Origin: Tildeniella torsiva UHER 1998/13D
GTDB taxonomy: Bacteria > Cyanobacteriota > Cyanobacteriia > Phormidesmidales > Phormidesmidaceae
Assembly: GCA_019358835.1 (NCBI GenBank)
Contig: JAHHIH010000004.1
Coordinates: forward strand, 248,001-312,000
Length of the DNA: 64,000 nt
Direction of reading: 5' to 3'
Translations under genes and position numbers: made by a program
Part shown: positions 23,142 to 27,495 of the stretch, in pieces
How positions within the stretch are numbered: the stretch's first letter is position 1
Layout of the letters: the number at the start of each line of letters is the position of its first letter
The notes under the pieces: generated by a model
Seen by the model: the letters and a program-made list of their open reading frames with translations, nothing else
What the model was told of the DNA's origin: nothing
Databases searched by the model: none

Positions 23142-24200
23142 GGCTTTGTTGCATGAATGAGGGTGTTACGGACGGGATCATGGCATAAGGTTAAGTACCA
23201 CCGAAAACCTGATGCCGATGCAGTATCGAGTCCGTAACTGGTCTGAGTATAACGCTGGACTCAAGCAGCGCGGAAGTCTCACGATTTGGTTGAGCGAGGA
23301 GGCTCTCAAGCAGTGGTTGGTGACTACGCCTACGGGACGGCGAGGGGCCTCTCAGACCTACAGTGATGAGGCGATTGCAACGATGGCGACCCTTAAAAGT
23401 CTCTTCCATCTGGCCAGCCGTCAAGCCCAGGGCTTTGTCGAGTCGCTGTTTGCGCTGATGGACATCCAGTTGCCGGTGCCTGACCACAGTACGGTATCGC
23501 GACGGTTAGGGGCGTTGTCGGTGGCCATGCCGGTTCAGCCTGCCACGGGGGCTCGTCATATCGTGGTCGATTCCACCGGCATCAAAGTCTAAGGGGAAGG
23601 GGAATGGAAAGCCCGGCAGCATGGCGTGAGCAAGCGGCGAACTTGGCGCAAGCTTCATCTTGGCGTCGATGAGGCGACCGGTGAGATTGGGGTCGCTGAG
23701 GTCACCACCAATGACTATCACGACAGCGAGATTCTCCCCAGTTTGCTGGATGGCATCGGTGGTGAGATTGCCCAAGTCTCCGGCGATGGGGCCTACGACA
23801 CGTTTGCTTGCAATGAGGCCATTGCCCAGCGGAGCGCTGTGGCGACGATTCCCCCGCGACACGATGCCCAGCCCTGTCGGCCCCAGGAGGCGACCCCGAC
23901 CCACCCGAGAGACCAAATCTTGCAACGCATTGACCACGTTGGCCGTTCAGCTTGGAAGCAAGAGAGTGGCTATCACCGTCGCTCGCTCGCTGAAACCACG
24001 ATGTTTCGGCTCAAGGTCACCTTTGGGGGGCAGGTGCGTTCTCGAACCTTTGACAATCAGGCCGTCGAACTCTTCTTGCAATGTGCAGCGCTTAATCGCA
24101 TGATTCAACTGACCAAGCCCGAGAGCTATCCGGTTGAGGCTTAGTTCACTGGCCTTATCGAGGAACTGCTGACGCTTCACCTAATTCATGCAACAAAGCC
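23142..24200 (+). mobile_element. IS5-family insertion sequence (about 1059 bp)
   Basis: Perfect 17-bp terminal inverted repeats, GGCTTTGTTGCATGAAT at 23142-23158 and its complement at 24184-24200, bracket one DDE transposase gene. No target duplication is visible: the left flank ends AGA and the right begins GTT. Together with the missing end of the interrupted hydrolase this suggests a deletion or rearrangement after insertion. Confidence 0.93.
23212..24144 (+). pseudogene. IS5-family DDE transposase with one in-frame stop
   Basis: A 310-codon transposase frame interrupted only by TAA at 23590-23592 (codon 127). The reading frame continues without shift on both sides: STGIKV, stop, then GEGEWKARQHGVSKRRTW. 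Related transposases have Tyr at this site, so a single TAC/TAT to TAA change explains it. The DDE residues remain: VVDSTGIK (first Asp), SGDGAYDT (second Asp) and HRRSLAETTMFRLK (Glu). Frames restarting at GTG/ATG 23626 would lack the first Asp. Probably inactive unless the stop is read through. Confidence 0.9.
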
Positions 24201-24395: not shown

Positions 24396-25256
24396 TTACT
24401 GGCCACTTTGGGCTAGGGCCTCTGCCGGGGGCCGCACCACGCGATGGGCCAAACCCAGTTTTTCTAACACTAGGATGGCGTACCAGGTGGCGTCGATTTC
24501 CCACCAGCGCCAGCCTGCGGGGGCCACGTTGGGGAAGGCGTGGTGGTTATTGTGCCAGCCCTCGCCGTAGGTGAGCAGCGCCGTCCACCACAAATTGCCC
24601 GAGTTATCGTCGATATGAAAGCGGCGCTTGCCCCACATGTGAGTTGCCGAGTTGATCAGCCAGGTCGAGTGCCACAGCAGCACAATTCTGAGGAACCCAC
24701 CGCAGATCACAAACGACCAGCCGCCAAGGGCAAAGAGGGCGATCGCAACCGGCACTTGCAGCAGCAGAAAGTTGCGATCGAGCCAGCGATAGTAGGGGTC
24801 GCGGGCAATATCCGGGGCGTAGCGACGGTAGATTTGGCCGTTAAAGACGGCCGGGTTGCGGTACACCATCCACAGCATGTGGCTCCACCAAAACCCGCGA
24901 CTGGCGGCGTAGGGGTCTTTTTCGGCATCTTCGGTGTAGAGGTGGTGCTGGCGGTGCCCCGCCACCCAAAAGATTGGCCCCCCCTGGAGCGCCATGGCGC
25001 CAATGGTGGCGATTATGTACTCTAACCAGCGGGGCACCTGCAAACTGCGGTGGGTCAGCAGTCGGTGATACCCCAGGCAAATGCCAATGCTGCCAAACAG
25101 CCAGTGCAGCGCCACCATCACCCCCAGGGCCGACCACGAAAAGAACCAGGGGGCCAGTAGGGCCACGCCGTGAATGGCGGCCAAAAAGCCTACCAATGTC
25201 CAATCCAGGTCTTTAATTCCCCGTTTTTCCGGGGCTTGTTTCAGTATTGTTGTCAT
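24396..25256 (-). CDS. Membrane fatty acid delta-9 desaturase (DesC/acyl-CoA desaturase type)
   Basis: Di-iron membrane desaturase (286 aa) that introduces a double bond into lipid-bound acyl chains. The three histidine boxes are complete: HRLLTH (about residue 64), HRQHH (about 101) and HNNHH (about 236). About four membrane segments are visible. Family length is normal. AAAAGGACGC gives the ribosome site. It is divergent from a TetR-type regulator 182 bases away, with palindromes and a leader hairpin between them, so temperature or lipid-dependent control is plausible. The exact position specificity is inferred from the box pattern. Confidence 0.92.
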   Translation of the reverse strand: MTTILKQAPEKRGIKDLDWTLVGFLAAIHGVALLAPWFFSWSALGVMVALHWLFGSIGICLGYHRLLTHRSLQVPRWLEYIIATIGAMALQGGPIFWVAGHRQHHLYTEDAEKDPYAASRGFWWSHMLWMVYRNPAVFNGQIYRRYAPDIARDPYYRWLDRNFLLLQVPVAIALFALGGWSFVICGGFLRIVLLWHSTWLINSATHMWGKRRFHIDDNSGNLWWTALLTYGEGWHNNHHAFPNVAPAGWRWWEIDATWYAILVLEKLGLAHRVVRPPAEALAQSGQ

Positions 25257-25365: not shown

Positions 25366-25432
25366 TTTGCAAGTGTCGCTTGCAAATTAACCTTAGCAAA
25401 CTTCTCTGATAAAATGCAAGTGTTGCTTTCTT
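25366..25432. promoter_or_regulatory. Two related operator-like sites between desaturase and TetR genes
   Basis: TTTGCAAG-TGTCG-CTTGCAAA (25366-25386) is a perfect 8-bp palindrome with a 5-nt spacer, the size of a TetR-family operator. A second, imperfect copy, TGCAAGTGTTGCTT (25415-25428), lies 47 bases further on, next to the regulator start. The shared core is GCAAGTGTYGCTT. They are likely binding sites for the adjacent regulator, controlling both divergent genes. This is inferred from position and symmetry. Confidence 0.65.
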
Positions 25433-25438
25433 TTTGCC

Positions 25439-26743
25439 ATGGCAGCTCAGCGACAATCAGCTCGGCAGCGTCTTGTAGATGCGGCATTTCATCTGTTTTC
25501 TAGCCAGGGAGTGGGCACCACTACTACACGACAGGTGGCCGACCTGGCCGGAGTGAATGAGGTCACGCTGTTTCGCCAGTTCGGTAGCAAGCATGGCTTG
25601 CTTGCAGCGGTGATGACGGAAGCTGAGGTGTTGACTGGCCCAGGGCAAGGCTTTGATTTAGAGGCCTTAGCTCAAGCCCCAGCCGATCAGGCTCTGAGGG
25701 AGTTTCTGAGCCAGTGCCTAGCCACCCTCGATCGGCTCTCAGAACTGGTGCGATCAGTGATTGGCGAGGGGGGGCAGTTCTCCGCAGACAATAGCCAAGC
25801 CATAGGGCGCGGTCTGCAAACCATTCGCGACTTCATGGCTGAGTACCTGGAGGCGCATCTGCCCCCTGGGGAGGCCGCTGGCCTGCCCCCTGAGGAGGTG
25901 GCGGGGTTGGTGATGGCGCTGCTGCTTGGCTATGCTGCCATCGACGGCACGACCGATGGAGCCAGTGAGGGCAACGTAGGATTTCACGGTCTGTGGCCCA
26001 GCCGGAGCGCGTTTATCGACAGTGTGGTGAGCTGGCTTCTCAGCCTGCGATCTCAAAACGTTGGAGGCGATCTTGCCCCAGATCAGCCCGGCCTTCCTCC
26101 CCTCAATACAGGCACCTGGATCGATCTACCCGCTCCAGTGGTGCACGAGATTATGCAGGCGGCCCGCAAGGCTGGCAATCAGACTCATGCTCTGGTCTAT
26201 GTGCTGCTGGGAGCGGGCGTGGCCGCCGCCGAGGTGCCGCTCTTAACGCGTGCCAGTGCGCTTTACGATAACAGCCAGCACATTTTGCTGGTGGGCTCTC
26301 AGCAGCGCCAGGTGCCCCTGAACCAGTGGATTATGGGCAAGCGCTACGGTACCTACACCAAAAACCCGCTCACCCGCTGGCTCAAAAGCCGCAGCGATGC
26401 CTCACCCGCCATGTTTTTGGGGCCAGACGACCAGCAGATCACTCCCCTGAGGGTGCGGCAGCTGTGGAATGAGGTCACAACCGGCATCATGCCACCCATC
26501 AGCGAACCGTTTGGGGTTGAGCAGGCCCGCGCCACGTGGTGCGTAGAGATGCTGCTGAGGGGGTTAACCCGTCAAGAACTGAGCCTGCTGAGCGGACTCT
26601 CGGTGGAGCAGCTCGACCCACTAGTGCAAAAGGCCCAGGCGCGATCGGCTTTGATTCAGGCCCTGCGGCTCGATCAGCAGCCTGGTTCAGCGCCAGCCAA
26701 CCTCGATAAGCCTGTTGATAGCAGCGCTGGGCTTAAAGACTAG
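25439..26743 (+). CDS. TetR-family regulator fused to an inactive tyrosine-recombinase-like domain
   Basis: A 434-aa protein, about twice the usual TetR length. Residues 8-60 form the TetR DNA-binding domain (AAFHLFSSQGVGTTTTRQVA, then VNEVTLFRQFGSKHGLL). Residues 70-205 are the helical ligand/dimer domain. Residues 230-400 follow the order of a phage-integrase catalytic domain: ALVYVLLGAGVAAAEV (box I, Arg replaced by Ala262), QRQVPL, MFLGPDDQQITPLRVRQLW, and ARATWCVEMLLRGLTRQEL with LLSGLS (box II, Arg364 kept, His replaced). No Tyr nucleophile is present. It is probably a regulator using the extra domain for DNA or protein contact. It is divergent from the desaturase. Confidence 0.85.
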   Translation: MAAQRQSARQRLVDAAFHLFSSQGVGTTTTRQVADLAGVNEVTLFRQFGSKHGLLAAVMTEAEVLTGPGQGFDLEALAQAPADQALREFLSQCLATLDRLSELVRSVIGEGGQFSADNSQAIGRGLQTIRDFMAEYLEAHLPPGEAAGLPPEEVAGLVMALLLGYAAIDGTTDGASEGNVGFHGLWPSRSAFIDSVVSWLLSLRSQNVGGDLAPDQPGLPPLNTGTWIDLPAPVVHEIMQAARKAGNQTHALVYVLLGAGVAAAEVPLLTRASALYDNSQHILLVGSQQRQVPLNQWIMGKRYGTYTKNPLTRWLKSRSDASPAMFLGPDDQQITPLRVRQLWNEVTTGIMPPISEPFGVEQARATWCVEMLLRGLTRQELSLLSGLSVEQLDPLVQKAQARSALIQALRLDQQPGSAPANLDKPVDSSAGLKD

Positions 26744-27159: not shown

Positions 27160-27495
27160 ATGGCATTTCCGCAAAGTTTGTCAGCGTTTTCCTCAATGAA
27201 TCAGCTGTTAGAGGCCATTGAAAGTCTTTTTGCGGCTGAGTTAGAGCGCACGGGTTCACCGTGGGTAAGTAGCCACCAGCTAGGGGAATTATTTTTGGCG
27301 GCCTATGGATTGGATCTGGAGAGGCTAATTGAGCAGCGAGGCTATGGCAAAGACCTGAGGTATTTTTTGACGACCACCAGAAGATTCTCGATCTATAGCC
27401 ATCAGCCGCCCCAAAAATATTATTTCGCTCCGCTCAAGCTGGTTATGCCGGGCGTTTTGAAAAGTGGTCGGCCTGCGCCAAAGCTGCGCCGTTGA
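27160..27495 (+). CDS. Unknown 111-aa protein with an OST-HTH/LOTUS-like pattern
   Basis: A soluble basic protein. The central part, SSHQLGELFLAAYGLDLERLIEQRGYGKDLRYFL followed by TTRRFSIYSH and a final YYFAPL strand, follows the winged-helix spacing of OST-HTH/LOTUS modules (helix, conserved Gly-Tyr-Gly, helix, then two strands). These modules bind RNA in other proteins. The match is judged by eye only. Start may be ATG 27160 or the in-frame ATG 27196 (MNQLLEAIE). It is convergent with the EAL gene. Confidence 0.6.
   Translation: MAFPQSLSAFSSMNQLLEAIESLFAAELERTGSPWVSSHQLGELFLAAYGLDLERLIEQRGYGKDLRYFLTTTRRFSIYSHQPPQKYYFAPLKLVMPGVLKSGRPAPKLRR

Follow-up and report, generated by a model that had tools for sequence, protein, structure and literature searches.

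Within the 64,000-nucleotide stretch of Tildeniella torsiva UHER 1998/13D analysed here (the window), an open reading frame at 25439-26743 on the plus strand encodes a protein of 434 amino acids in which a TetR regulator is joined to a C-terminal tyrosine-recombinase fold, and orthologues of the same architecture occur across cyanobacteria. We consider it very probable that the protein is a TetR-type regulator of the fatty acid desaturase gene transcribed divergently from it, with a dead recombinase domain attached. The desaturase (24396-25256, minus strand, 286 aa) matches Pfam PF00487 at 2.2e-21, is DesC-like by its histidine boxes and represents the conserved partner of the regulator. The closest named relatives of the regulator belong to Nodosilinea and related cyanobacteria. 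Adjoining the desaturase, a DDE transposase at 23212-24144 (plus strand) is split over two reading frames (PF13737 then PF01609) and is therefore probably a decayed insertion sequence. Downstream of the regulator lies a 111-aa reading frame (27160-27495, plus strand), which is without Pfam match and appears OST-HTH/LOTUS-like by eye.

The N-terminal part of the regulator is a clear TetR protein. The TetR_N helix-turn-helix (aa 12-58, 25472-25612, plus strand) matches PF00440 at E 1.4e-12 with 47.7 bits, above the curated cut-off of 24. The following ligand and dimer part (aa ~60-202, 25616-26044, plus strand) is entirely helical in the AlphaFold model and matches many TetR structures in Foldseek, among them FadR and DesT; with the full-length model the best matches include XerA, B. 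subtilis FadR and DesT-palmitoyl-CoA. A flexible linker of variable length in the alignment (aa ~206-224, 26054-26110, plus strand; pLDDT below 50 at 206-221) leads to the recombinase domain at aa ~229-413 (26123-26677, plus strand). Beyond about residue 205 the window protein on its own has no match in Pfam or NCBIfam. Since PF00589 is not matched by this protein alone, the recombinase homology is visible only through its relatives, 39 of 59 of which possess the domain.

A profile of 36 C-terminal relatives was used to search PDB sequences and returned archaeal XerA first (4a8e, E 3.8e-10) and the Tn1549 integrase next, XerD being weak. PF00589 was matched individually by 16 of the 36 relatives (best 1.6e-11), and several relatives matched the NCBIfam models for XerC, XerD or XerA. 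Comparison by hhalign gave 96.4% (E 1.2e-9) against six integrases and 0.1% against the desaturases as an unrelated control family. The isolated domain was modelled by AlphaFold with a pLDDT of 88.8 and a pTM of 0.83; Foldseek matched this model to XerA 5hxy (E 9.1e-9, TM 0.65), and all 50 PDB matches listed were tyrosine recombinases. The domain is an Xer/integrase-type catalytic domain whose chemistry has been destroyed. Pfam, profiles and structure thus confirm the combination of a TetR regulator and a tyrosine-recombinase fold with a ruined active site that a sequence-only reading of the window had proposed, and the possibility that residues 215-410 adopt an unrelated fold fails since sequence and structure results both point to a tyrosine recombinase. 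That the resemblance is an artefact is hardly credible: the missing PF00589 match of the window protein could be cited for it, but independent sequence and structure results are concordant and the negative control is clean. Neither a standalone or phage source of the domain nor any copy free of TetR was found in viral contigs, phages and 146 cyanobacterial genomes; the next-best matches in these genomes were Xer-like genes (L123-L125).

In the profile-profile alignment the box I Arg of recombinases corresponds to Ala262 in the window protein, the HxxR His to Glu361, the later His to Leu387 and the Tyr to Leu395, so that of the catalytic set R, K, H, R, H/W, Y only Arg364 is retained. These are the same positions that had been assigned from the sequence-only reading. 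Its statement that Tyr is missing holds for the nucleophile position; the domain as a whole does contain tyrosines (e.g. Tyr254 and Tyr303). A complete catalytic set is present in none of 68 members: box I retains its Arg in 2, the HxxR motif its His in 1 and its Arg in 28, and the later H/W position is kept in 11, always as Trp, with R-S-R-W-Y in L093 as the most complete combination. The nucleophile position is Leu in all 21 members of the Nodosilinea group and outside this group Tyr (44/47) or Phe (3/47). Conserved in place of the catalytic residues is a family signature from R290 to D320, R290-QVPLNQWIMGKRYG...NPLTRWLKSR.D320 (26306-26398, plus strand), which forms the most conserved stretch of the domain (columns at least 90% conserved, 68 members). 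The N-terminal core-binding domain of tyrosine recombinases is absent, its place ahead of the catalytic-like domain being taken by TetR part and linker. The domain is near charge-neutral, K+R about equalling D+E, with a pI of 6.1-9.5 compared to 9.4-9.9 for six integrase domains. In one member (L063) the domain is interrupted by a long low-complexity insertion that follows the ALFI segment.

A TetR orthologue was detected in 197 of 390 Cyanobacteriia genomes (E<=1e-40), and among the orthologue matches listed nearly all reading frames have a length of at least about 400 aa. When non-redundant loci with both regulator and desaturase readable were considered, the same desaturase was divergent from the regulator in 93 of 94, the exception being L061; the desaturase neighbourhood pointed out for the window alone thus extends through the family. 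This fusion is an ancient one and is bound to a single target. On a 29-kb plasmid of Gloeothece citriformis PCC 7424 (pP742403, L177) the desaturase-regulator pair is found together with the same two operators described below, 47 bp apart, beside genes for an orange-carotenoid-protein N-domain, a light-harvesting-like and a fasciclin protein, neighbours that hint at a light-stress setting. In two draft genomes (L179, L180) the TetR part and recombinase domain are out of frame with each other, by sequencing error or as a split gene. One contig labelled Candidatus Gracilibacteria (L053) is probably mis-binned, since its regulator and desaturase group with those of cyanobacteria.

The intergenic regions between regulator and desaturase carry palindromes TGCAAGTNNNACTTGCA, two per fused locus. 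In the window, candidate operator A (TGCAAGTGTCGCTTGCA, 25368-25384) has one mismatch to the family consensus, and candidate operator B (TGCAAGTGTTGCTTTCT, 25415-25431) has three and lies 7 bp before the tetR start codon; both fall within 25366-25432, a stretch singled out already in the sequence-only reading. The right arm of B is degenerate in Nodosilinea. Taken alone, a match with three mismatches such as B does not exceed chance expectation in the window, and B draws its support from conservation across relatives. Sequence conservation thus places a palindromic operator near the regulator's own gene, as in the TetR family, with binding putative. Since TetR-only relatives retain the same palindrome, it is presumably the TetR part that reads it. 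At a score of at least 11, two or more sites were found in 81 of 82 fused loci; in the exception (L063) the second site is just below this score and the operators are 70 bp apart. In 63 of the 72 loci that have exactly two scored sites, these are 46-48 bp apart (47 bp in 44, 46 bp in 14 and 48 bp in 5), the remainder showing 44, 49-52, 70 or 85 bp. Of 386 cyanobacterial genomes, 38 contain the double-site pattern, by coordinate comparison at this locus in every case, and the reversed control gave 0. With regard to a wider regulon, the own genome holds a single other operator-like site with one mismatch (G000:C35:44988-45004, L127), which may be chance or a second target.

Between the operators, 72 of 74 loci have a TA[AG]C[AT] element at 15-16 bp from B; its distance from A is 7-16 bp. 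Shuffled spacers place TARCW at such a distance from B in 1.7%. Read on the desaturase strand, the element provides TGnTA, a candidate extended -10, for which TTGCAW in the arm of B would be the -35 at a distance of 17-18 bp. The desaturase promoter of the window would then have its extended -10 at TGCTAAGGT (25390-25398, minus strand), as suggested by the TARCW-B distance, and its -35 at TTGCAT inside operator B (25414-25419, minus strand), 17-18 bp away. We also considered TARCA as a recombinase half-site, or as the desaturase -35 with a -10 in A. Both were rejected because the distance to B is fixed and that to A variable, and because the element persists in loci with TetR-only forms; an extended -10 appears to suit it better than either. 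In many loci (e.g. L068, L083, L036, L096) a TTACAGT/CTACAGT element is seen about 10-20 bp left of operator A; it is absent from the window and occurs also with a TetR-only form.

Relatives without the domain offer a natural experiment. Ten TetR-only relatives were counted: L097, L098 and L183-L187 (family f5), L190 (f23), and L096 and L178 (f24, one genus). L181, scored as such by the script, was set aside because the contig ends within this locus and the beginning of the domain is present. Each of the seven loci with a single operator is of the TetR-only type. The three other TetR-only loci (L096, L178, L187) retain both sites, so operator pairing does not need the domain. In a first tree L097 and L098 were unresolved and L096 was nested among fused forms. 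On a tree of concatenated TetR and desaturase sequences (quick search, midpoint root) three changes of architecture and two of operator number are counted; the two losses of an operator both belong to TetR-only lineages and accompany domain loss in two of three lineages. The simpler reading of this tree appears to be repeated domain loss, given that L190 clusters with fused members of its own family and L096/L178 lie among fused forms. We therefore did not keep the TetR-only form as a clear ancestral state: the three changes suit repeated loss, on a root that is midpoint only. That domain and operator are lost together fits a bridging role and is suggestive, with too few events, as two independent operator losses cannot bring a sign test to significance.

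Taken as a whole, our best explanation, which we hold tentatively as falling a little short of probable, is a DesT-like repressor acting on paired operators, with the dead recombinase domain coupling its dimers and a ligand in the TetR pocket. The TetR part would bind A and B between the divergent genes. With B overlying the inferred desaturase -35 immediately ahead of the regulator start codon, and A immediately downstream of the inferred -10, binding should repress both the desaturase and the regulator itself. A ligand, probably acyl-CoA, acyl-ACP or a fatty acid, as suggested by DesT, FadR and MadR, would release or re-set the repressor. The dead domain would serve as a protein-protein self-association module and reuse the recombinase habit of assembling multimers; such coupling of the dimers on A and B is plausible, though not quite to be called likely. 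Possible but doubtful is the bolder version, a recombinase synapse turned gene switch, in which dead Xer-type domains touch across operators about 47 bp apart in the manner of former recombinase protomers and bridge the repressors into one complex on the desaturase promoter, and domain loss frees the second operator to decay. The spacing corresponds to 47/10.5 or about 4.5 helical turns, so the two operators face opposite ways. An in-phase DNA loop was rejected on this half-integer number of turns, and the half-turn phase together with the paired operators of domain-less loci disfavours a simple obligatory loop; looping between two operators, as the sequence-only reading had suggested, is thus only a possibility. 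The spacing could also be set by promoter geometry instead of coupling.

The main rival to coupling is DNA binding by the domain itself, one of the roles proposed in the sequence-only reading; as a second DNA-binding unit, it would clamp or bend the DNA between the operators or next to them. Recombinase catalytic domains do contact DNA, basic residues (R290, R302, K316, R318) are part of the conserved signature, and in TnsF a dead recombinase already serves DNA targeting (PMC10293859). Yet the charge of the domain is near neutral, unlike that of active integrases, half of the recombinase clamp, the core-binding part, is missing, and no conserved DNA element is exclusive to fused loci, since loci of TetR-only forms likewise have spacer element and operators. 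We therefore regard this role as unlikely and so far unsupported. Rather unlikely, too, is a second sensor input, the domain recognising a small molecule or a further protein and taking no part in operator pairing. Neutral charge, a strongly conserved family-specific signature and the three domain-less loci with paired operators would agree with it, but the gene context suggests neither partner nor ligand, and it leaves unexplained why single operators are confined to TetR-only forms. Finally, the domain might be a passive leftover of the fusion with little function, given that catalysis is gone and that the tree shows about three losses of the domain with the desaturase partner retained. This is very improbable in view of 18 invariant columns among 36 relatives, of an identity to the window protein in distant members that is about the same for the domain as for the whole protein, and of a fused frame retained in nearly all carriers listed.

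Several known systems come close to the regulator proposed here. With DesT of P. aeruginosa, FadR of B. subtilis and MadR of mycobacteria it has the TetR fold in common; these are ordinary TetR-size proteins and, unlike the window regulator, have no recombinase domain. DesT and MadR regulate desaturase genes and sense acyl-CoA (PMC8872791). Linkage to a desaturase or fatty-acid gene of this type is present in the window family, a response to acyl-CoA being putative. XerA, XerC, XerD and XerH (PF00589) share with the domain the catalytic fold and detectable sequence homology, whereas the 68 members of the window family lack a complete catalytic set and a core-binding domain and were always found joined to TetR. 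In bacteria, TnsF of Tn6022 combines an inactivated tyrosine recombinase domain with a further DNA-binding region (PMC10293859). TnsF selects targets for a transposon, has zinc fingers and both recombinase domains, and does not regulate metabolism; in place of its N-terminal zinc fingers and Tn7-like context, the window protein has a TetR N-terminus and a desaturase as conserved partner. Catalytically dead tyrosine recombinase domains are also found in animal transcription regulators with Crypton-derived DUF3504, e.g. ZMYM2 (PMC3212892). These are eukaryotic and separate from the window family, in which none of 36 members scanned against Pfam matched DUF3504 (E<=1). In the one literature collection searched, no description of a fusion between TetR and a dead recombinase was found.

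Dead tyrosine recombinase domains are thus already known from animal regulators and, in bacteria, from the transposon target selector TnsF. Within the literature searched, no counterpart was found for such a domain in a chromosomal bacterial metabolic regulator, whose TetR orthologue is present in about half of the sampled Cyanobacteriia genomes. With fused and domain-less orthologues, candidate operators and one clear target gene, the family provides a natural system for finding out what a recombinase fold does without its chemistry. In many cyanobacteria a membrane-lipid desaturase gene is accompanied by the gene for a TetR-type repressor, which retains a non-cutting recombinase fold for another job, perhaps that of holding repressors together on paired sites.
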